Part shown: positions 33,427 to 43,678 of the stretch, one piece after another
How the letters are laid out: each line of letters begins with the position of its first letter
Position numbering within the stretch: the first letter of the stretch is position 1
NCBI GenBank assembly: GCA_029010715.1
Contig: JAQXKZ010000014.1
Location: forward strand, 1 to 64,000
Direction: 5' to 3'
Source of the DNA: Clostridiales bacterium
Lineage (GTDB): Bacteria; Bacillota; Clostridia; Oscillospirales; Oscillospiraceae
Length of the DNA stretch: 64,000 nt
Made by a program: the position numbers and the translations under genes
Notes under the pieces: model-generated
The model's database searches: none
What the model was told of the DNA's origin: nothing
Seen by the model: the letters and a program-made list of their open reading frames with translations, nothing else

Positions 33427-33939
33427 TCAATAGCTCAGCCGGCGGATAGACGGAACGGCATACAGCACCTTGTACGCAAGCACGCTGACGACCATCCCGG
33501 CCGCGCCCTGTATGGCGTTGCCCGGAATGCTGGCAGCCGCAGCCATACCGTATGAGAGCACAAGCCCTTCATAGGCGAAGTAGCCGAGCACCATAACTAT
33601 CTCTCCCGCCGCGGCACCGGCGACCAGACCCGCTGTTTTTCCGTGCAGCGCGCGCAGTATCAGCGCTGCGCTCAGAGCCATCAGGCCCTTTATCACAAGC
33701 GTGCCCGGAGCATAAGCGGCATATCCGAGCAATACGTCCGCGAGCATCGAGCCGAAGCCGCCCGCAGCCATACCCCAGACGGGGCCGAGCAGAAACGCCC
33801 CAAGCAGCACCATGCCGTCGCCGAGGTTAATATATCCGTTTGTGGCGGGCATGGGGATGTGTATAAGCATCGTCGCCACACAGGTCAGCGCGGCAAAAAG
33901 CGACGCAAGCACGAGCCTTATAAGTTTATCATGTTTCAT
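33427..33939 (-). CDS. ECF transporter S component (substrate-binding membrane subunit)
   Basis: 170 residues, about six membrane helices. After the N-terminal helix (LIRLVLASLFAALTCVATML) comes the ECF S signature INLGDGMVLLGAFLLGPVWG, followed by AYAPGTLVIKGLMALSAAL. It matches PF07155. These subunits bind a vitamin or micronutrient and use the general EcfA/A'/T module, which is not encoded here. ATG 33939 is preceded by AGGAGG with 8-base spacing. I see no confident riboswitch in the 200-base upstream region, so the ligand is unknown. Confidence 0.85.
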   Translation of the reverse strand: MKHDKLIRLVLASLFAALTCVATMLIHIPMPATNGYINLGDGMVLLGAFLLGPVWGMAAGGFGSMLADVLLGYAAYAPGTLVIKGLMALSAALILRALHGKTAGLVAGAAAGEIVMVLGYFAYEGLVLSYGMAAAASIPGNAIQGAAGMVVSVLAYKVLYAVPSIRRLSY

Positions 33940-33970
33940 ATTCTGCACCTCCTCGGTTTGCTGTAGTGTA

Positions 33971-33997
33971 ATACTTGATCTGAACATATTCAAGTAT
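33971..33997. other. Inverted repeat upstream of the ECF S gene
   Basis: ATACTTGA/TCAAGTAT arms separated by 11 bases, 32-58 bases before the start. Possible operator or leader hairpin; not a known riboswitch fold that I can recognise. Confidence 0.35.
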
Positions 33998-34158
33998 CAA
34001 TTCTGTGCAGAAAAATAAGACCAGATGCGTTCTTTCGCCTCTGCCGCCGGGTTTTCATACTACCCCGGCGTTTATGACAGCAAGCTCATAACGATACGTG
34101 ATTACGCACAAATCCGCACGGTATGGAGCGCACAGCTCCGCAAAACCGCTTAAAGCTC

Positions 34159-35361
34159 TTATTCGGTCTTTGATACAAGGCCGTATTCTTCGGCCAGCGC
34201 TCTGAAGGCGGGTATGGAGCTGTGCAGGCGCTCCGGCGTGACGCAGTAGGCAAGGCGCGCATAGCCGCCGCGGCCGAACTCATCGCCCGGGATAAGCAGT
34301 ATATTATGCTCCATGGCGCGCCTGCAGAAGTCCCGAGAATCGCCGCCGGGCGCTTTGACGAAGAGATAGAACGCGCCGTCCGGCCGCACACAGCTGAAGC
34401 CGAGCTCCGTCAGCGCGCCGTAAATGAAATCCCTGTTGTATTCATAACGGGAAATATCCACGGTCTCGCCGATGCATTCGGCGACCATCAGCTGGAAGAT
34501 GGACGAGGCATTGATATAGCCCAGCGCGCGTCCCGCTCCGCACACAGCGGCGTAGACGCTGGCGTAGTCATCAAGTTCGGGATGCAGCGCGATAAAGCCT
34601 ATGCGCTCACCCGGCAGCGACAGGGTCTTGCTGAAGGAATAGCAGTACACGGTATTCCGGTATATGGCCGGTATGAACGGCACCTCCATATCGCCGTAGA
34701 CCAGCTCACGGTACGGCTCATCGGCAATGATATAGATCGTGTGGCCGTACTCGGCGGACTTTCTCTCCAGCAGCTCAGCGAGCTGTTCAAGCTTTTCACG
34801 GCGGAAAATCACGCCGGAGGGATTGTTCGGGGAGTTCACAAGCACGGCGGCCGAGCGCGGAGTCAGCGCCTTTTCCAGGGCTCCGACGTCGAGCTGGAAG
34901 CTGTCCTCATCCGTCGGCACCTCGACGAGCCTGCCGCCGGCGGCCTCCGTATACAGACGGTATTCCGAAAAGCACGGGGTAAAGGTGAGCATTTCGTCGC
35001 CCGGGCTGAGCAGGGCATACGCGAGGATCGCAAGCGCGGAGCTTGCGCCCGACGTCATATAGACGTCCTTCGCCCGATAGCCTACGCCGAAGCTGCGCTG
35101 CAGATAATCCGCCATGCTCTGTCTGACGCTTTCCAGCCCCGGAGCCGGCGTATATGAGTGAAGCTTTTCCGGAGGCAGCTCCTTCAGCATGCGCTCCAGA
35201 CTCTCGTGCACGCAGTCCGGCGGCTCTACGCTCGGATTGCCGATGGTAAAATTAAAAACCTTGTCCGCGCCTATCTCGGCGGCACGCTTTTCGCCGTAGG
35301 CGCTGATCTCACGTATGGCGCAGTCCTGGCTGCCCCAGCCGATCATCCTTCTTGAAATCAT
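34159..35361 (-). CDS. Class I/II PLP-dependent aminotransferase, likely aromatic
   Basis: 400 residues, fold type I aminotransferase. The conserved NSPNNPSGVIF, IIADEPYRELVY and SFSKTLSLPGERIGF (Schiff-base Lys) are present. It is the last gene of the aromatic operon, so it probably transaminates phenylpyruvate and 4-hydroxyphenylpyruvate to Phe and Tyr. Sequence alone would allow aspartate or other substrates. GGAGG precedes ATG 35361; the gap to aroQ is 22 bases. Confidence 0.85.
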   Translation of the reverse strand: MISRRMIGWGSQDCAIREISAYGEKRAAEIGADKVFNFTIGNPSVEPPDCVHESLERMLKELPPEKLHSYTPAPGLESVRQSMADYLQRSFGVGYRAKDVYMTSGASSALAILAYALLSPGDEMLTFTPCFSEYRLYTEAAGGRLVEVPTDEDSFQLDVGALEKALTPRSAAVLVNSPNNPSGVIFRREKLEQLAELLERKSAEYGHTIYIIADEPYRELVYGDMEVPFIPAIYRNTVYCYSFSKTLSLPGERIGFIALHPELDDYASVYAAVCGAGRALGYINASSIFQLMVAECIGETVDISRYEYNRDFIYGALTELGFSCVRPDGAFYLFVKAPGGDSRDFCRRAMEHNILLIPGDEFGRGGYARLAYCVTPERLHSSIPAFRALAEEYGLVSKTE

Positions 35362-35383
35362 AAGAGCCTCCGTTCTACCGCAG

Positions 35384-35827
35384 TCAGTTTTTCTTTTCGT
35401 TCAGGTACTTTTCCAGATAACGTACGGCCTGCACATATCCGTCAAAGCCCAGCCCGGCGTAGGTCTTTATACAGGCCATGCCGGCATACGATATCTGCCG
35501 GAACGGCTCGCGGGAGGATACGTCTGAAATATGCACCTCAACGGCCGGTATCGCAACGGCCTTGAGCGCGTCGAGTATCGCGACGCTCGTATGCGTATAG
35601 GCGGCCGGGTTTATAACGATGCCGTCACAGACTCCGTAAGCTTTTTGTATCTCGTCGACAATGTCTCCCTCATGGTTTGACTGAAATATGCTGAGCTCTA
35701 TACCATCCTGCTGCGCTGTACGCCTCAGCAGGCCGCAGAGAGCCGCATAGTCCTGCGAACCGTATATATCCGGCTCACGCAGGCCGAGCAGGTTCAGGTT
35801 GGGGCCGTTTATGACAAGTATCCTCAT
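35384..35827 (-). CDS. aroQ: Type II 3-dehydroquinate dehydratase
   Basis: 147 residues, the normal type II length. It forms 3-dehydroshikimate, step 3 of the shikimate route. Features are ILVINGPNLNLLGLREPDIY with the lid Arg and catalytic Tyr, FQSNHEGDIVDEIQ, VINPAAYTHTSVA, and VEVHISDVSSREPFR with the catalytic His. ATG 35827 overlaps the aroE-aroK stop (ATGA); a longer frame to 35842 would overlap more and has no advantage. Confidence 0.95.
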   Translation of the reverse strand: MRILVINGPNLNLLGLREPDIYGSQDYAALCGLLRRTAQQDGIELSIFQSNHEGDIVDEIQKAYGVCDGIVINPAAYTHTSVAILDALKAVAIPAVEVHISDVSSREPFRQISYAGMACIKTYAGLGFDGYVQAVRYLEKYLNEKKN

Positions 35828-37047
35828 GCGAGCTGTCTCCAAATACTGTCCGCGCAGGCCTCGGGAGTGCCGTTGTTATCGGCGGTAATGTCCGCGAAAG
35901 CTTCATACAGCGGTACCCTGCGGCGGTACATCTCATGCAGATCCGCCGTCGCGGACAGAGGCCGTCCATCGCGCGGGAGGCTGTCCGTGTTCCTCTGAAG
36001 CCAGACTATCACGCCGTTCTGGTGCAGCAGCGCGTAATTTCTGTCGACGGTGACGCACCCGCCGCCTGTCGCGATTATCGCACCGGAGCCCTTGCCGGCA
36101 TCAGATATCAGCTCGGTCTCCAGCTTCCGGAAACCTGCCTCGCCGCCTTGGGCGAATATCTCGGGTATGGACATTCCGGCACGCTCGACAATCATCTCGT
36201 CGATATCCAGCACCCTGCGTCCGGTCTTTTCGCTCAGCAGACGCGCGACCGTAGTTTTTCCGGAGCCCGGCATACCTATGAGCACTATGTTCTCCATATC
36301 GCGTGCGAGTACGCGCTCGATACGGTCGATCTCACTGTCGTCGACCGACGCGCCGGTAAACAGCTCGCTGCTGCGCTTCGCCTGAGCAACAAGCATGTAC
36401 AGGCCGTTGCCGAATTTGATATCCAGCTCTTCCGCCTGTAGCAGCAGCGCTGTACGCGCCGGGTTATACACGACGTCCAGCACCGCGCGGCAGTTCGGAA
36501 AGACCCGGAGGTCTAGCGCACTTTTGCCGGTGTTAGGATACATGCCGAGCGGCGTAGTGTTGACAATGAGCTCCGCGTCTTCATGCAGGGAGAGATTGCC
36601 GTAGTTGTTCTCTCCGCTGCGGCTGATGATCACGGTGTGCGCGCCAAGCCGTTCAAGCACGGCGTGCACCGAAGCGCACGCGCCGCCGTTGCCGAGTATG
36701 AGCGCTTTTTTCCCCGACACGTCTATGCCGTTTTTCATAACAAGCCGCTCAAAGCCGAACATGTCGGTGTTATCGCCGTATATGCTCCCGTCGCCTCTGC
36801 GGACAAGGGTGTTCACGCTGCCCGACAGGCGCGCGTTCTCACCGAGCTCCGCACAGAAGGGCACGACTGCCTTCTTATACGGTATGGTCACGTTCAGGCC
36901 GTCCCAGTCGCCGTTTTCGATAAAGTCCCCTAGCCGGTCCGGAGCCACCTCAAAGAGCCTGTAGCCGTAATCGGCGAGCATCCCGTGTATGGCCGGAGAA
37001 TAGCTGTGGCCCAGCTTTTCGCCGAGCAGTCCGCATTTAAGCATCAT
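35824..37047 (-). CDS. aroE-aroK: Bifunctional shikimate dehydrogenase / shikimate kinase
   Basis: 407 residues fusing two successive enzymes. Residues 1-245 are AroE: substrate loop SYSPAIHG, NVTIPYKKA (Lys58) and GDNTD (91-95), with the NADP loop LILGNGGACASV. Residues 252-407 are AroK: P-loop LIGMPGSGKTTVA (Lys264), DIDEMI, and GGG at 328-330, with the lid RPLSA. It reduces dehydroshikimate and phosphorylates shikimate. The start overlaps the pheA stop. Separate genes are the usual arrangement; the fused order E-K is less common. Confidence 0.93.
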   Translation of the reverse strand: MMLKCGLLGEKLGHSYSPAIHGMLADYGYRLFEVAPDRLGDFIENGDWDGLNVTIPYKKAVVPFCAELGENARLSGSVNTLVRRGDGSIYGDNTDMFGFERLVMKNGIDVSGKKALILGNGGACASVHAVLERLGAHTVIISRSGENNYGNLSLHEDAELIVNTTPLGMYPNTGKSALDLRVFPNCRAVLDVVYNPARTALLLQAEELDIKFGNGLYMLVAQAKRSSELFTGASVDDSEIDRIERVLARDMENIVLIGMPGSGKTTVARLLSEKTGRRVLDIDEMIVERAGMSIPEIFAQGGEAGFRKLETELISDAGKGSGAIIATGGGCVTVDRNYALLHQNGVIVWLQRNTDSLPRDGRPLSATADLHEMYRRRVPLYEAFADITADNNGTPEACADSIWRQLA

Positions 37048-38186
37048 ATCACCTCACTGTAGCTGCCAAGATAGGTAAAGCTCTCACAAATGCTGTCCAG
37101 CTCTCCCATAAGCTGTATGAATTTCGGAGAATAGACAGGTACATCCAGATCGAAGTAGAACATAAACTCAAAGTCGCGGTCAGGTATCGGGCGGCTTTCG
37201 AGCTTGTTGAGGTTGATGTCCAGGGCATAAAAGCGGGACAGCAGCTTATACAGCGTGCCCGGCCTGTGCGCCAGCGTAACCATAAGGCTAGTGCGGTTCG
37301 CGCCCGGATATATCTCCAGGTCTTTCGATATGCAGATGAAGCGGGTATAGTTGTTGCTGCGGTCCTGCACGTTTTCTCTGATGCAGTCGAGGCCGTAGAG
37401 CCTTGCACAGTCGCGCGAGGAGAGCGCGGCGATATCGTCTCTGCCGGACTCCGCGACCAGCTTTGCGGCCATCGCGGTGTTGTCGCAGGCAGTCACTTTC
37501 ACTCCGGGCATGGTCTGCAGAAAGCCGCGGCACTGTGCTATTGCCTGCTCGTGGGAATATATCTCCTTTATATTTTCAACCTTCACGCCCGGCTTTGCTA
37601 GCAGGCTGTGATCTATCTTCAGGCGCACGCTGCGCACGATGCTGAAACGGTGGCGCATCATGAGATCGTAGACCGTATTCACCGAACCGGCCGTGCTGTT
37701 TTCCAGCGGGATAACGCCGTAGCGGCACAGTCCCTTCTCTATCGCGGAGAACACCGCGTCAAAGCTGGAGAAGTACAGGGTGTTCGCGCTGCGCATGAGC
37801 TTGCTGCAGGCGATCTGGGAATAAGCTCCCTCGATGCCCTGACAGGCGACCGCTGCGCGCTCCGGAAACAGAGGCGGAGTGTTTTTCACGGCGTCCTCTA
37901 TGCGCGCCGTGACTTCCGTACCGGTACCTATCAGACGGTTCTGATAGCTGCGGCTGAGCTCGAATATGAGCGAGTACAGCAGCTCCGTATAATCGCGAAG
38001 CTCCGCCGGACTCTGTTCCGAGACGCTGTGAAGCTTCTCACGCTCCCTCCTGACGTCAAGCACCGGCAGACTGTTTTCCTTTTTATACTCCGCCAGCCTT
38101 CCGGCGACCTCCATACGCTCGGCAAAGAGCTTTACAAGCTGTTCGTCGATGCGGTCTATCTGCTTTCTGTAATCGCTTCTGTCCAT
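37044..38186 (-). CDS. pheA: Bifunctional chorismate mutase / prephenate dehydratase
   Basis: 380 residues. The N-terminal AroQ-type chorismate mutase (about 1-85, YRKQIDRIDEQLVKLFAER) is followed by prephenate dehydratase (about 105-285, AACQGIEGAYSQIA and the catalytic TRF in NNYTRFICIS) and a C-terminal ACT domain (about 295-375, PGTLYKLLSRF and LESRP) that binds Phe for feedback inhibition. It makes phenylpyruvate from chorismate. The gap to aroC is 6 bases. Confidence 0.95.
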   Translation of the reverse strand: MDRSDYRKQIDRIDEQLVKLFAERMEVAGRLAEYKKENSLPVLDVRREREKLHSVSEQSPAELRDYTELLYSLIFELSRSYQNRLIGTGTEVTARIEDAVKNTPPLFPERAAVACQGIEGAYSQIACSKLMRSANTLYFSSFDAVFSAIEKGLCRYGVIPLENSTAGSVNTVYDLMMRHRFSIVRSVRLKIDHSLLAKPGVKVENIKEIYSHEQAIAQCRGFLQTMPGVKVTACDNTAMAAKLVAESGRDDIAALSSRDCARLYGLDCIRENVQDRSNNYTRFICISKDLEIYPGANRTSLMVTLAHRPGTLYKLLSRFYALDINLNKLESRPIPDRDFEFMFYFDLDVPVYSPKFIQLMGELDSICESFTYLGSYSEVI

Positions 38187-38192
38187 TTCTCT

Positions 38193-39263
38193 TTACCTCG
38201 CTTCCTTTTTTCTGCCGAGCAGAGCGTCATACACGGCGAGCGCCGCAGCGGCCTCCACGCAGGGAAGAGCACGCGGTACTATGCACGGGTCATGCCGGCC
38301 GCGTATCTCCAGTGTCTGTTCCTCCAGTGTCTCCATATTCACGCTGCGCTGCGCCCGCGCTATCGAGGGCGTCGGCTTGAAAGCCACGCGGAACGTGAGC
38401 GGCATACCGTCGGTGATGCCTCCGAGGATACCGCCGCAGTTATTCGTCAGGGTCTCTATACGCCCGTCCCGGACGCAGAAGGGGTCGTTGTTCACGCTGC
38501 CGCGCATACGCGCCGCGGAAAAGCCCGCGCCGAACTCCACGCCCTTGACGGCCGGAATACCGAAAACTATCGCGGCGATACGGTTTTCCATGCCGCCGAA
38601 CATCGGATCGCCGAGTCCGGCAGGCAGGCCGAGCACCCTGCACTCGACTACGCCGCCTACGGAATCGCCCCCGGCCCTTGCCGCCGCGATGCGCTCACGC
38701 ATCAGTGCGCCGCGCTTGTCGGAAACCGTCGGAAAGCTCTTTTCCGCGAGGCTTTCGCTCAATTCGCCCTCGTCGTCCACATCGGCCACAGAGGCTATCC
38801 TTGCAATGACGCTTATCCCCTCCCCGGCAAGAAGCTGCAGGCATATACCTCCGGCAAGGCAGAGCGGGGCGGTCAGGCGGCCGGAGAAGTGCCCTCCGCC
38901 CGCGTAGTCCTGTGCGCCGCCATACTTCATCTGAGCGGTGAAATCCGCATGTCCGGGGCGCGGAAGAACTCTCAGCCCGCTGTAATCCTGCGAGCGGGTG
39001 TCTGTGTTGCGTATGATCGCCGTAAGCGGAGCGCCGCACACGGTGTCGCCGACGAGGCCGGATATGAACTCCGGCATATCCTTTTCGCGTCTGGCAGTGG
39101 AATACTCGTTTTTTCCGGGCGCCCTGCGCTCCATGAAACGGTAAAGCCTGTCAAAATCTATCCTGCTGCCGGCAGGTATGCCCTCCAGCGTCATGCCTAT
39201 CGCCGGGGAGTGTGACTGGCCGAATATGCTCAGGCGTATGTTTTCTCCGTAGGTGCTGCTCAT
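38193..39263 (-). CDS. aroC: Chorismate synthase
   Basis: 356 residues, FMN-dependent. Signatures are IFGQSHSPAIGMTLEGIPAG, TARREKDMPEFISG, RPGHADFTAQMKYG, GGGHFSGRLTAPL and RHDPCIVPRALP. It eliminates phosphate from EPSP to give chorismate. The start codon overlaps the aroA stop (ATGA). Confidence 0.96.
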   Translation of the reverse strand: MSSTYGENIRLSIFGQSHSPAIGMTLEGIPAGSRIDFDRLYRFMERRAPGKNEYSTARREKDMPEFISGLVGDTVCGAPLTAIIRNTDTRSQDYSGLRVLPRPGHADFTAQMKYGGAQDYAGGGHFSGRLTAPLCLAGGICLQLLAGEGISVIARIASVADVDDEGELSESLAEKSFPTVSDKRGALMRERIAAARAGGDSVGGVVECRVLGLPAGLGDPMFGGMENRIAAIVFGIPAVKGVEFGAGFSAARMRGSVNNDPFCVRDGRIETLTNNCGGILGGITDGMPLTFRVAFKPTPSIARAQRSVNMETLEEQTLEIRGRHDPCIVPRALPCVEAAAALAVYDALLGRKKEAR

Positions 39264-40513
39264 CTCACGACCTCCAGTGATGAAAAGTCATCCCAGAACC
39301 GGGGATATGATTTCTGTACGCATTGCGGGGCGAGCACGCTCACCGGTCCGCGGCAGACACAGGCCGCGACAGCCGCCGCCATCGCTATGCGGTGGTCGCC
39401 GCAGGAGTCGACGGTGCCTCCGTCAAGCGCCGGCCGGCCGTTTATCACAAGGCCGTCGTCAGTCACGCTCACGTCCGCCCCCAGTCCGGTTAGCATCCCG
39501 GCAGTGCTTTCCAGCCTGTCGGACTCCTTAAGGCGCAGGCGGCCGGCGTTGACAAATCGAGTCACGCCCTCAGCCGCCGCGGCTACTACGCTCAGAGCCG
39601 GGACAAGATCCGGTATCATCGAAGCGTCGACGGTCTGTCCGCGCAGTTTTCCGCGCCGGACTGTAATTTCTGTCTCCCCGGCCGACACCTCCGCGCCGAA
39701 GCCGGCGAGTATTTCGGCGATCCGGCGGTCTCCCTGCACGGAGTTTCCGCGCAGTCGGGTGACGGTGACGCCTCGGTCGGACAGCGCGCCGGCACAGAGG
39801 AAGAAGGCCGCGTTCGAATAGTCCCCCTCCACCGTAAGGGCCGCAGGCATACGGAATGTCTGTCCGCCGGGGATAAGGTAGCACCCGGCGCTTCCGTCCA
39901 TGCGCACGCCCGCGCGCTGCAGCGCTTCAAGCGTCATGGAGACATAGCCGGCCGATTCAAGCGGCCCCTCGATATGAAGCGCACTGTCCCCCGAAAGCAG
40001 GGGCAGAGCCATAAGCAGGCCCGAAACATACTGCGACGAGACGTTTCCGGGAAGCGTATACTCCCCCGCCCTCAGCCTGCCGGAGAAGCGCAGTCTGTCG
40101 CCATCGCGGCATATATTCATACCGTGGGACATGAGCTCCGAATCGTAGGGGTGAAGCGGGCGCTCCGGGAGGCGTCCCTCCATGACGAAGCAGCCCTCCG
40201 CGCCGAGAGCTCCCGCAACAGGGAGCAGGAAGCGGAGCGTCGAGCCGCTCTCTCCGCAGCGCAGGGTACAGCCGCTCTTATCCCAGCAGCGGACCGGCTC
40301 CACATGTATAATGCTTCCGGTTACGCTTATGCCGGCGCCGAGCGCGTTGAGACAATCCGCTGTCGCCAGTATATCCTTCGACATTCCGTCGCAGTAAATA
40401 TCCGACGACCGCTCCGAGAGGGCGGCGCATATAAGATAACGGTGTGCCTGTGATTTTGAGGCCGGGATCTTAACGCTGCCGCGGCGCATACCGGGCAATA
40501 CAGTCCGGGTCAT
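39260..40513 (-). CDS. aroA: EPSP synthase (3-phosphoshikimate 1-carboxyvinyltransferase)
   Basis: 417 residues, two inverse barrel domains. The PEP/shikimate-phosphate site is seen in KIPASKSQAHRYLICAA and CGESGSTLRFLLPV. The second half has VEGDYSNAAFFLCAG, then VKESDRL-type text (LRLKESDRLESTAGM) and DHRIAMAAAV. The G-x-x-x-x-T motif of glyphosate-sensitive class I enzymes is not clear; the overall pattern looks class II/intermediate. ATG 40513 overlaps the aroB stop. A frame to 40537 lies inside aroB. Confidence 0.95.
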   Translation of the reverse strand: MTRTVLPGMRRGSVKIPASKSQAHRYLICAALSERSSDIYCDGMSKDILATADCLNALGAGISVTGSIIHVEPVRCWDKSGCTLRCGESGSTLRFLLPVAGALGAEGCFVMEGRLPERPLHPYDSELMSHGMNICRDGDRLRFSGRLRAGEYTLPGNVSSQYVSGLLMALPLLSGDSALHIEGPLESAGYVSMTLEALQRAGVRMDGSAGCYLIPGGQTFRMPAALTVEGDYSNAAFFLCAGALSDRGVTVTRLRGNSVQGDRRIAEILAGFGAEVSAGETEITVRRGKLRGQTVDASMIPDLVPALSVVAAAAEGVTRFVNAGRLRLKESDRLESTAGMLTGLGADVSVTDDGLVINGRPALDGGTVDSCGDHRIAMAAAVAACVCRGPVSVLAPQCVQKSYPRFWDDFSSLEVVR

Positions 40514-41568
40514 TTCACTCCACCCGCCTTCATCCACTCACGCAGCTGCGCGGGCGTCACCGGCTCGATACGGCAGCGGCCTATCCGCTCCGGAACTATG
40601 AGCCGCACCGTGCTGCCGTCTGACTTCTTGTCAGACAGGGCCGCCTCCAGCATGTCATCCAGCGGGTAGTCCGTCTCCGTTGGCAGGCCGTACTGAGTGA
40701 GTATGGTCTCCACGGCTTTGGCCGTCCCTTTCTCACACACGCCCATTTTCTCCGCCGCGCGGCTTACAGCCGCCATACCCATCGCCACGGCCTGACCGTG
40801 CAGGACGGTATAGCCGCTGCAGGCCTCGACGGCGTGACCGAAGGTATGCCCGAGATTCAGAAGCATTCTGTCACCGCGGTCAAACTCGTCGCGCGCGACC
40901 AGATCGCGCTTCATAGCGACGCACTTTTCAATAACATACTCCGTCTGTTCGCGTATCGGCTGCAGGAGCAGCGAATCAAAAAAAACGGAGTCGCCTATAA
41001 CGGCATATTTTATTACCTCTGCGCTCCCGCAGCGGTACTCCTCCTCAGGAAGAGTGTTCAGAAAATCCGTGTCGCACAGCACGGCCAGCGGCTGGTGAAA
41101 GCACCCGGCCTGATTTTTGCCGTGCTCAAGATTGACCGCGGTCTTGCCGCCGACCGAGGAATCGACCGCCGCCAGAAGCGAGGTGGGAATCTGGATATAG
41201 CCGATCCCGCGCTGATAGGTCGCCGCGGCGAAACCCGTCAGGTCACCGACAACGCCGCCGCCGAGCGCAGCCATGACATCGCTGCGGCTTATATGGTTTA
41301 CACACATGAATTCGAGCAGTCGCTCATACTCCGCGATACACTTGGAGTGTTCGCCGTGCGGCACGGTGTAGCTCAGTACCCGCGCGCCGGCCTGTTCCAG
41401 TCTCTCCCGCACAGCCTCTCCGTACAGAGGGGCCACATTGTCGTCCGAGACGAGCACCACGCTGCGACCCGCGCAGAACGGCCGGGCCAGTCGGTCAATG
41501 CTGCCAAGCAGTCCGGAGCCGACCAGTATGTTATAGCTTCTCGATGCGTTTACACGTATGGTCCTCAT
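40510..41568 (-). CDS. aroB: 3-dehydroquinate synthase
   Basis: 352 residues. It cyclises DAHP to 3-dehydroquinate with NAD+ and a divalent metal. Features include VPHGEHSKCIAEYERLLE, ALGGGVVGDLTGFAA and the conserved IQIPTSLLAAVDSSVGGKTA, with metal ligands in LNLGHTFGHAVE. The stop of tyrA overlaps its start by one base. Confidence 0.95.
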   Translation of the reverse strand: MRTIRVNASRSYNILVGSGLLGSIDRLARPFCAGRSVVLVSDDNVAPLYGEAVRERLEQAGARVLSYTVPHGEHSKCIAEYERLLEFMCVNHISRSDVMAALGGGVVGDLTGFAAATYQRGIGYIQIPTSLLAAVDSSVGGKTAVNLEHGKNQAGCFHQPLAVLCDTDFLNTLPEEEYRCGSAEVIKYAVIGDSVFFDSLLLQPIREQTEYVIEKCVAMKRDLVARDEFDRGDRMLLNLGHTFGHAVEACSGYTVLHGQAVAMGMAAVSRAAEKMGVCEKGTAKAVETILTQYGLPTETDYPLDDMLEAALSDKKSDGSTVRLIVPERIGRCRIEPVTPAQLREWMKAGGVK

Positions 41569-42398
41569 CAGCCGTCCACCAGTTCCTTCCGTTCCTTGCC
41601 CTCTCTGAGAAGCCTCACAAGCTCCTCCTCGTCCCCTGCGGCAATAGCCGTTCTGTATTCCTGCAGGTTGGCTATAAGCAGATCCAGCTCGCGCACCAGA
41701 TTGTCTCCGTTGTCAAGAAACAGCTCCGCCCACATGCCCGGGCTGAGCCATGCAACGCGGGTCATATCCTTATAGCTGCCGGCAGAGAAGCCCTTATGCT
41801 CCAGCGCGGTCGGGCTCTTTATATAGGCGCTGGACACGACGTGGGCAAGCTGCGAAGTGAAGGCTATCATCTCGTCGTGCTTCTCCGCAGTCGTCACGGA
41901 TATGCTGGCAAAGCCGGCCGGAGTCAGCAGCTCCTTTACGCGGCTGAGCAGAGCTATGTCGTCAAAGCCCGGCGGAACGATCACCATAGGCGCCCCGCGA
42001 AACAGGTCCGCCGTTGAATATTTAAAGCCGGAATACTGTTTGCCGGCCATCGGGTGGCCTCCGAGATAGGTAAAGCCGTATTCTTTTGCTATCGGAAACG
42101 CCGCGGCCGTGACCTCGCGCTTGGTGCCGCAGCAATCTATGACTACCGGATGCGGTCCGAAGTGAGGTCCCATACGGCGCAGATAATCCACCGCCGCCTG
42201 CGGATATACGCAGATCAGCACGAGGTCGCATTCGGAGACGTTCTGCTCGGTCAGCTCGTCGTTGATAACGCCGCTGATGCCTGCGAAGCTCAGGATGGAG
42301 CGGCTTCTGTTCGTGGCAAGGACCCTGTGTCCCGCCGCCTTATATGCCTTTGCAAAGGAACCTCCTATGAGTCCCAATCCTACTATGCCGACCGTCAT
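41568..42398 (-). CDS. tyrA: Prephenate dehydrogenase
   Basis: 276 residues. The N-terminal NAD site is [16 protein letters not shown]. The family's active-site segment reads [15 protein letters not shown], with the conserved His of G-H-P-M-A-G, and a helical dimer domain follows. It makes 4-hydroxyphenylpyruvate. There is no ACT domain, so feedback by Tyr would need another site or control at DAHP synthase or transcription. Its start overlaps the aroF stop (ATGA). Confidence 0.94.
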
Positions 42399-43396
42399 CT
42401 GACCGCCTCCCTGACCGCGCGTATCCGTCCTGCCAGCACGTCATATTCCTCGGGACGCAGCGACTGCGCTCCGTCACAGAGGGCGTGCAGCGGGTCGTTG
42501 TGGACCTCGATGATAAGACCGTCGGCACCGCCGGCCGCGGCGGCCAGAGCCATGGGCGGCACAAGACGGGCAATGCCGGTGGCATGGCTCGGGTCTACAA
42601 TGACAGGCAGATGCGTCAGCTCGTGGAGCATGGGCACCGCCGCAAGGTCCAGAGTATTGCGGGTGTAATCGTCAAAGGTGCGAATACCGCGCTCACAGAG
42701 AATGATCTGCTCGTTGCCGTTGGCCATGATGTATTCAGCGCTCATAAGCAGCTCCTTGAGCGTATTGGCAAGGCCGCGCTTGAGGAGTATGGGCTTATGC
42801 AGGCGGCCCAGCTCCTGCAGCAGGTCAAAGTTCTGCATGTTGCGAGCGCCCACCTGAAGCACGTCCACATCGTCGAAAAGCGGCAGATCCGTGACGCTCA
42901 TGATCTCGGTCACGATAGGCAGGCCGGTCTCTCTTCTAGCGATCTTCAGCAGCTCCAGGCCCGTAGCCTTCAGGCCCTGGAAGTCATAGGGCGAGGTGCG
43001 CGGCTTGAACGCCCCGCCGCGCAGCATGTTTGCGCCCGAGGCTTTGACCGCTTTGGCAATACCGACGATCTGCTCCTCGGACTCGACCGAGCAGGGACCG
43101 GCGATCATGCAGAAATGGCCCGAGCCTATTTTCACATCCCCGATCTCAACGACGGTATCCTCCGGATGAAATTTTCTGTTGCAGCACTTAAAGGGTTCGC
43201 TGACGCGCTTGACGGTATCCACGATGTCGAGACTCGCAACGAGATCCATATCCACCTTATTGGTGTCGCCGACCAGACCGAGGACGGTCTGATACATACC
43301 TTCGGATACATGTACGGTCAGCCCCATGCTCTCCAGCCATTCAATGAGCTGATGCTTACGCTCTTTGCTTACATTCGCCTTCAGTGCAACAATCAT
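42395..43396 (-). CDS. aroF: 3-deoxy-7-phosphoheptulonate (DAHP) synthase
   Basis: 333 residues, type I-beta DAHP synthase, first enzyme of the pathway. The N-terminal ferredoxin-like regulatory domain (about 1-70, [20 protein letters not shown]) precedes the barrel ([38 protein letters not shown], and [12 protein letters not shown] with a metal ligand). The N-terminal domain is the feedback site for aromatic amino acids in relatives. ATG 43396 was chosen because GGAG lies 9 bases upstream. It is the first structural gene after the attenuator. Confidence 0.96.
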
Positions 43397-43451: not shown

Positions 43452-43484
43452 AAAAAACGCGGCACAGGCGTAACCTGTGCCGCG
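43452..43484 (-). terminator. Attenuator hairpin of the aromatic operon
   Basis: On the minus strand a perfect 11-bp stem (CGCGGCACAGG/CCTGTGCCGCG) with a 5-base loop is followed by six T residues. It lies 33 bases after the leader peptide stop and 56 bases before the aroF start, so it can only act as a regulated terminator for the aro operon. Confidence 0.85.
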
Positions 43485-43516
43485 TAATAAGCAAAAATTA
43501 TAGCCCTATCAACGCA

Positions 43517-43591
43517 TCACAAATTACCCCTACCGAAAAAGCCGGTAAAGTATACGTAAGCGTAATAGGTAAAGCTGAAACGAGCGTCCAT
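43517..43591 (-). CDS. Phe/Tyr-rich leader peptide of the aromatic operon
   Basis: A 24-residue ORF on the minus strand, beginning MDARFSFTYYAYVYF and ending in GRGNL. Nine residues are aromatic: Phe 5, 7, 15, 18, 19 and Tyr 9, 10, 12, 14; there is no Trp. AGGAG (43602-43598) lies 6 bases before the ATG. It sits between a near-consensus promoter and the attenuator hairpin. Ribosome stalling at Phe/Tyr codons when charged tRNA is scarce would let transcription pass the hairpin into aroF. I could not identify the alternative antiterminator stem by eye. The peptide itself is probably not functional once made. Confidence 0.85.
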   Translation of the reverse strand: MDARFSFTYYAYVYFTGFFGRGNL

Positions 43592-43649
43592 TGTGTTCTC
43601 CTGAAATAAGACCGGCATATACTCCCGGCCATTTTCATTTACGCAAGCG

Positions 43650-43678
43650 ATTATAGCAGTTTCCAAACCCGAAGTCAA
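43650..43678 (-). promoter_or_regulatory. Promoter of the aromatic operon
   Basis: On the minus strand, -35 TTGACT (43678-43673), a 17-base spacer and a consensus -10 TATAAT (43655-43650). It lies about 60 bases before the leader peptide start. Confidence 0.8.

Follow-up and report, generated by a model that had tools for sequence, protein, structure and literature searches.

A predicted Phe/Tyr leader-peptide attenuator before the shikimate operon of an Oscillospiraceae bacterium, and similar RNAs before other aromatic amino-acid genes

Introduction

The pheL-pheA system of E. coli combines a leader peptide containing Phe codons with a terminator/antiterminator switch. That attenuator (treated in a section of PMC11802643) differs from the locus described here in that it concerns Phe only and controls pheA rather than a whole shikimate operon. 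The closest known case is the aroR leader of Corynebacterium glutamicum, which precedes the aroF operon of this actinobacterium (Neshat et al. 2014, via PMC11802643; as a prediction in PMC4046766). Like our locus, it has a leader peptide with Phe and Tyr before a DAHP-synthase gene and is assigned to ribosome-mediated attenuation, a likeness drawn from published descriptions; it differs in its Phe-Tyr-Phe stretch and in that the passages on it in PMC11802643 report a response to limitation for Phe, but not for Tyr. Attenuation has also been proposed for the uORFC-13-1 motif before aroF, with 24 representatives from Acholeplasma and environmental DNA (PMC8632094). Here too the likeness is drawn from the description, and consists of an upstream ORF with Phe codon(s), a terminator, and aroF downstream, whereas the part of that source on the motif specifies at least one Phe residue and makes no mention of Tyr. 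Within the Firmicutes, His leader attenuators from 17 genomes in all, some of them Clostridia, appear in the relevant part of PMC9413887; these share the control-codon leader peptides and alternative hairpins, but read histidine and occur in few genomes. Finally, the trpB motif RF04312 (SRC-39-1) has been published as a strong riboswitch candidate, for which the authors could not rule out an attenuator; in the section of PMC11109978 that describes it, it resembles the RNA studied here in its terminator, in the antiterminator region within the preceding hairpin, and in having an amino-acid ABC transporter gene or trpB downstream.

In the open-licence PMC literature, we found no description of a Phe/Tyr leader of aroF in Clostridia, which is no proof of novelty. 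An earlier reading of the DNA, made from the sequence alone, had called peptide-based attenuation of such operons in Clostridia little described. For aroF in this class the statement agrees with our search, but the kind of system is known from C. glutamicum aroR and the Acholeplasma aroF upstream ORF. The switch itself is classical ribosome-mediated attenuation, and what appears to go beyond the Corynebacterium and Acholeplasma cases is a conserved RNA core with exchangeable control codons.

Here, we analyze a leader region in a 64,000-nucleotide stretch of DNA (the window) from a Clostridiales bacterium of the Oscillospiraceae (contig JAQXKZ010000014.1, positions 1 to 64,000). Its anatomy and predicted folding indicate that it is very probably a ribosome-mediated transcription attenuator, which would sense charged tRNA-Phe and tRNA-Tyr and control the operon leading from shikimate to Phe and Tyr.

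Results

Leader region and operon

The sequence-only reading had proposed a 24-residue ORF with nine aromatic residues, a ribosome-binding site, and a near-consensus promoter, followed by a U-tract hairpin and aroF. All of these are present on the minus strand at 43678-43396, and the coordinates given for the leader and terminator, 43452-43591, are correct. A pattern scan places a sigma-70-type promoter at 43650..43678 (TTGACT-17-TATAAT with TG before the second hexamer; 11 of 12 consensus matches plus the TG). The ribosome-binding site AGGAGA (43597..43602, read from the sequence) is followed 5 nt downstream by the ATG (43591) of the leader ORF (43517..43591), which translates as MDARFSFTYYAYVYFTGFFGRGNL and a stop. 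Its 24 codons include five for Phe and four for Tyr (F5, F7, Y9, Y10, Y12, Y14, F15, F18, and F19), the final three control codons being Phe. The intrinsic terminator with its U-run occupies 43452..43485, as found by scanning and by covariation, and consists of a 13-pair hairpin (43485-43457) followed by a T-run. The 1.2 kb scanned held two promoter-like matches versus 1.3 in shuffled sequences and three terminator-like matches versus 1.4; these counts barely exceed the shuffles and are therefore little proof alone, and the promoter by itself is suggestive.

In the minimum-energy fold of the control region, the Tyr codons are held in a hairpin with the following strand, and the terminator stands behind it. 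Strand 1 (43555..43569), which covers the Tyr codons, forms the 5' arm of this protector hairpin, and an inner hairpin (43528..43550) lies inside codons F15 to G22. According to the folds and an alignment, strand 2 (43505..43527; core GGUAAUUUGUGAUGC) has two alternative partners, strand 1 and strand 3. The latter (43470..43491) is the 3' side of the predicted antiterminator, overlaps the 5' arm of the terminator, and covaries with strand 2. The fold of 43575-43448 has a z-score of -7.5, unequalled in 200 shuffles, to which the terminator contributes much.

The first gene of the operon is aroF, encoding 3-deoxy-7-phosphoheptulonate synthase (42395..43396, minus strand; NCBIfam PRK08673 and DAHP_synth_Bsub over their cut-offs), whose start codon, read from the sequence, is the ATG at 43396. 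Behind it, tyrA, aroB, and aroA follow almost end to end on the same strand (39260..42398), as seen from their ORFs and NCBIfam matches; aroB and aroA exceed the cut-offs, and tyrA matches prephenate dehydrogenase models below cut-off. The ORFs at 33427..39263 (minus strand) were named by eye from their translations, not from family models, as aroC, a chorismate mutase-prephenate dehydratase, an aroE-aroK fusion, a type II dehydroquinase, an aminotransferase, and a small membrane protein resembling an ECF S component.

Predicted dependence on ribosome position

From this anatomy we infer translation, stalling, termination, and a physiological response as follows. With Phe and Tyr plentiful, the ribosome would reach the leader stop and cover strand 2, strand 3 would pair with strand 4, and transcription would stop before aroF. 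With either amino acid short, the ribosome would stall at one of the nine codons and leave strand 2 free to pair with the emerging strand 3, by which the terminator would be blocked and the operon transcribed. When the leader is not translated, the protector formed by strands 1 and 2 would favor termination.

We simulated the ribosome by masking the RNA to 9 nt past each A-site codon and folding the free part as it would be just before the 3' arm of the terminator exists. With the ribosome at codons 1 to 19 of the window leader, the predicted antiterminator pairs 12 of the 13 nt of the terminator 5' arm. The energy of this hairpin is about -20 kcal/mol through F18 and -16.9 at F19, and then falls off to -14.2, -9.0, and -8.7 kcal/mol at codons 20-22. 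At codon 23 and beyond, as far as the stop, the prediction changes to another, weak structure (-5.1 kcal/mol) in which 8 nt of the arm remain paired. The computed permissive zone thus takes in every one of the nine aromatic codons (5-19). A competing antiterminator, on which the earlier reading had made its proposal depend, is therefore possible according to the folding, and it depends on ribosome position as attenuation requires.

We also examined 78 terminator-bearing leaders of the family. A ribosome placed on the final aromatic codon of the run leaves 6 nt or more of the terminator arm paired upstream in every one of them. Once it reaches the stop, 26 leaders lose this pairing, 38 keep part of it (among them the window, which goes from 12 nt to 8), and 14 show no change, counts obtained with no shuffle control; in 65 of the 78, the free energy is then higher by 5 kcal/mol or more. 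When strands 2 and 3 were scored as a duplex over 78 leaders, they beat shuffles overall (p 3e-7) and barely beat partners swapped between genomes (p 0.02); taken one by one, only 11 leaders exceeded 95% of their shuffles and 8 exceeded 95% of their swaps. This energy test has little power because terminator arms are alike between genomes and differ in length, and we therefore rely on alignment counts instead.

Covariation and conservation

The alignment comprises the window and 27 near relatives (28 sequences) from the control region to the terminator, leaving out two loci identical to others (L099 and L107; labels with L are our locus numbers) and three with no usable terminator or leader (L100, L101, and L108). 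For the antiterminator, 93.7% of cells are paired and four pairs changed on both sides; its covariation score is 0.202 versus 0.154 in shuffles, with none of 500 as good, and on two further measures 36 and 38 shuffles out of 500 reached the observed value. The terminator has 93.2% of cells paired, six pairs changed on both sides, and a score of 0.294 versus 0.135 (0 of 500), and lies beyond all shuffles in every measure. Sliding the partners by 1-3 columns gave scores of at most 0.082 and 0.106 for antiterminator and terminator, respectively. These shuffle counts are not probabilities, because the sequences are kin and were selected for having a leader and a terminator. As for the protector, the strand 2 core pairs with the coding region at 68% of positions versus 48% in shuffles across the 28 sequences (Wilcoxon 4e-7), and the window alone does no better than its shuffles by this core-pairing measure (0.54 versus 0.50).

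Strand 2 is also conserved in primary sequence (AAUUUGUGNUGC), but is read in different frames, as GNL and a stop in the window, SLCCK in L331, and KAICAA in L309. This difference between loci speaks for a constraint on the RNA rather than on the peptide.

The decisive test that the leader is real is, in our view, its conservation. A search for aroF at E up to 1e-60 found the gene in 159 of 200 same-family genomes, from which we took 90 upstream regions. These belong to the window, to 29 other loci, and to 60 more taken down the ranking, with G123 (a partial match), G159, and G163 skipped along the way. Within 350 nt before aroF, 80 of the 90, window included, have an ORF with six or more aromatics in 10 residues; the reverse strand gave one, and shuffles predict 1.6. 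With at least five aromatics, the count is 85 of 90 (reverse strand 7; expected 9.3). The family genes without a leader thus number 10 at the stricter and five at the looser criterion, the latter being L025, L030, L061, L071, and L092. Outside the family, 209 of 291 class genomes matched aroF, and 89 regions were chosen down the ranking, two of which were dropped as shorter than 300 nt; the strict criterion holds for 52 of the remaining 87 (reverse strand 1; expected 1.6). In a sample of named GTDB records, which shares some contigs with the first set, it holds for 64 of 80 (reverse 3; expected 1.5). The leader is therefore conserved in related species, as the earlier reading had asked of it. 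In the 86 family regions whose best ORF has at least five aromatics (L061 and L076 among them being dubious), we counted 417 Phe, 311 Tyr, and eight Trp residues, and every leader has both Phe and Tyr.

This kind of aroF also turned up in records labelled Thermoguttaceae, Treponema or Treponemataceae, Bacteroidaceae, and Lentisphaerae, which may be mislabelled bins or cases of transfer; an aromatic ORF precedes the gene in L113, L125, L126, and L171, and L133 and L155 are without one.

The RNA at other genes

An initial covariance model, R1, matched 14 of 196 class genomes. Its weak matches L275, L276, L278, L280, L284, and L285 have no aromatic leader (L277, L279, and L281 were left out of the follow-up) and were therefore treated as chance; E up to 1e-4 was used later. 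The model R2, built from 73 sequences, gave 73 matches at this threshold in 63 of the 200 family genomes. By coordinates, 49 adjoin the aroF places already listed; of the other 24, one is again aroF (L316), two at contig ends were left out, and 21 were examined.

All 21 of these sites precede genes for aromatic enzymes or for transporters with inferred substrates. The downstream genes are TrpX-like ABC transporters at six sites (L315, L317, L318, L322, L330, and L331), TrpB2 at five (L307, L308, L311, L319, and L328), sodium:solute symporters at three (L325, L327, and L329), aroB-first operons at three (L323, L324, and L320, the last of which ends in trpB2 in L344), pheA at two (L291, where only the first codons are seen, and L326), and phenylacetate-CoA ligases at two (L309 and L321), with another ligase, L332, from a different family. 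Family models were run on L319, L325, L326, and L331 of the 21, and on L332, the remaining sites being assigned by eye from sequence likeness. At the modelled sites, Pfam domains are over cut-off, as is TrpB2 in NCBIfam, and the best NCBIfam matches fall short of their cut-offs for the ligases, the symporter, pheA, and the TrpX-like protein.

The codons of the leaders vary with the gene behind them. Trp occurs in the leaders of all five trpB2-containing operons counted (L307, L311, L319, L328, and L344) versus eight of 86 aroF leaders; the Fisher value of 2.8e-5 overstates independence, because the five operons come from four genera and relatedness is uncorrected. The leader of the TrpB2 site L308 carries Trp as well. 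The ratio of Phe to Tyr is 21:5 before the three ligases and 21:25 before the six ABC transporters. An ACT_8 protein follows the phenylacetate-CoA ligase genes behind aromatic leaders in L332, L319, and L337, and in L319 and L337, which are the same place, the ligase comes after trpB2; this arrangement suggests a role for the ligase in aromatic amino-acid synthesis.

In the class as a whole, the R2 core was found in 11 of 391 genomes, the window's own included, and at 10 of 89 aroF loci, far less often than aromatic ORFs. Beyond the family, therefore, either the core may have diverged or the leaders may have arisen independently.

One of the six transporter sites lies in the window's own genome. 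This second copy (G000:C11:10255-10352, minus strand; loci L282 and L331) has the leader MKFVFAVAFGFYYYFFGMSNRSLCCK and the same computed codon dependence, with -24 at the Tyr/Phe run and -0.6 at the stop. Behind it are genes for a TrpX-like binding protein (212 bits; model cut-off 390), a permease, and an ATPase. The genome also has seven T-box matches, two of them over cut-off, before valS, another TrpX-like binding protein gene, alaS, tyrS, thrS, asnB, and pheS. In the specifier loop of the T-box at the other TrpX-like gene (L033), the conserved GAA is followed by a triplet that we read as UGG. The two TrpX-like paralogues hence appear to have different sensors, a T-box read as UGG (Trp) at L033 and a Phe/Tyr leader peptide at L331. 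With T-boxes at several synthetases, and with the aroF operon and one transporter appearing to use leader peptides, the sensors in this genome seem to be split.

Known RNA families and the trpB motif

No Rfam family, the T-box included, reached its threshold in a scan of the aroF leader locus. Weak matches (ncS54, E 0.005, 22.7 of 43 bits; DapZ, L20_leader, and others) were judged to reflect resemblance to terminator hairpins. The window leader gave a weak full-length match to RF04312 (23.3 bits, E 0.41), well under the cut-off of 59. A search of 16 loci, made up of regulon sites and near relatives, found none that matched this family at E up to 0.01; we therefore reject membership of the window leader in it.

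RF04312 itself had matches in 11 of 245 class genomes, none over cut-off, and in four of 299 phylum genomes, one over cut-off. We examined all 31 over-cut-off members found in the genomes of one order (L356, L359-L369, L385, L386, L388-L400, and L402-L405), which come from seven families, 14 of them from one. In 28 of the 31, an ORF preceded by a ribosome-binding site and with at least two Trp codons has its end 9 to 21 nt upstream of the motif (e.g. MRQLSLTTNEQRQSWQSWRR), and the other three have a one-Trp ORF in a similar context (WQSR); in shuffles, the rate is 0.6%. Family models identified TrpX or trpB behind four members (L356, L360, L389, and L390), and the remaining downstream genes were read by eye as TrpX/trpB, except for L359 and L369, where no ORF was found, and L388, where the first ORF is something else. 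On the strength of the Trp-bearing ORF just upstream, we consider that the trpB motif is probably a leader-peptide attenuator too.

Sub-threshold RF04312 matches, whose membership in the family may be doubted, include His runs before hisZ (L346 and L348) and YFSYYR endings before aroE (L377 and L383). Runs of His codons (HHHHH or HHH) before hisZ-like genes also occur in the same class at L347, L349, L352, and L353; the gene behind L346 matches hisZ models, and the others were recognized by eye.

Discussion

The window leader has the parts by which an attenuator is recognized: an ORF with clustered codons behind a ribosome-binding site, a terminator, and an antiterminator that excludes it. A protector over the control codons is seen in the window fold and, jointly above shuffles, in the 28 sequences, the window alone not exceeding them. 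In the folding calculations, stalling frees the antiterminator and the ribosome at the stop blocks it, both in the window and in the second copy, the block being variable over the 78 leaders. The proposal of ribosome-mediated attenuation made in the earlier reading is thus borne out as far as sequence can go, through the antiterminator, the conserved leader, and the covariation of both helices.

Any other account has to explain the aromatic ORF. If a T-box read uncharged tRNA directly at this locus, the ORF would be incidental, and since tyrS and pheS are among the genes with T-box matches, these two amino acids are read by T-boxes elsewhere in the host. None of the seven matches is at this locus, however, where no T-box appears at the Rfam gathering score or among matches up to E 10, and an incidental ORF would hardly be conserved before 80 of 90 family aroF genes. 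At the sensitivity of the Rfam model a T-box here is refuted, and we regard this explanation as scarcely credible. Nor does the T-box emerge as the usual alternative that the earlier reading took it to be: among 28 class loci without a leader by our criterion, 20 were scanned and one had a T-box over the Rfam threshold. The conserved primary sequence of strand 2 and the weak RF04312 match could instead point to a riboswitch that binds a metabolite or to a leader that binds a protein, the ORF being of secondary importance. Yet the frame through strand 2 varies by locus while the aromatic codons upstream persist, Trp codons appear where the operon holds trpB2, and RF04312 itself resembles a leader-peptide attenuator, all of which makes such a regulator very improbable.

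A nearer variant keeps the leader peptide and supposes that it senses only Phe (or only Tyr), or that the terminated leader RNA also acts in trans. The response reported for C. glutamicum aroR in PMC11802643 is a precedent for Phe sensing, and for that reason dual sensing is put forward here as a prediction; in keeping with the precedent, the control codons of the window leader end in three for Phe. On the other hand, Phe and Tyr are found together in all 86 family leaders, and the computed permissive zone includes codons for both alike. We hold this variant to be rather unlikely, and dual sensing of Phe and Tyr by the ribosome to be the better description of the window leader.

As for the wider picture, we lean towards the view that one conserved RNA switch with exchangeable codons constitutes an aromatic amino-acid regulon in this Clostridia family. 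It would carry Phe and Tyr codons before aroF operons and the TrpX-like transporter, mostly Phe before pheA and phenylacetate-CoA ligase, Trp together with Phe/Tyr before trpB2 operons, and Tyr-rich or Trp-bearing runs before sodium symporters. The trpB motif would then be a device of this kind from a different order of the phylum, and its Trp leader would have been overlooked because it sits immediately 5' of the motif.

The results point to a leader peptide as the sensor of Phe and Tyr before aroF in a large share of the Clostridia sampled, where T-boxes had been expected. If RF04312 is an attenuator, recognizing it as such spares the hunt for a ligand that may not exist. If the regulon is real, it would assign substrates to orphan transporters and imply that the phenylacetate-CoA ligase serves aromatic amino-acid synthesis here; and if codon content predicts the substrate of the gene downstream, the leaders would provide testable substrates for uncharacterized transporters of these bacteria.
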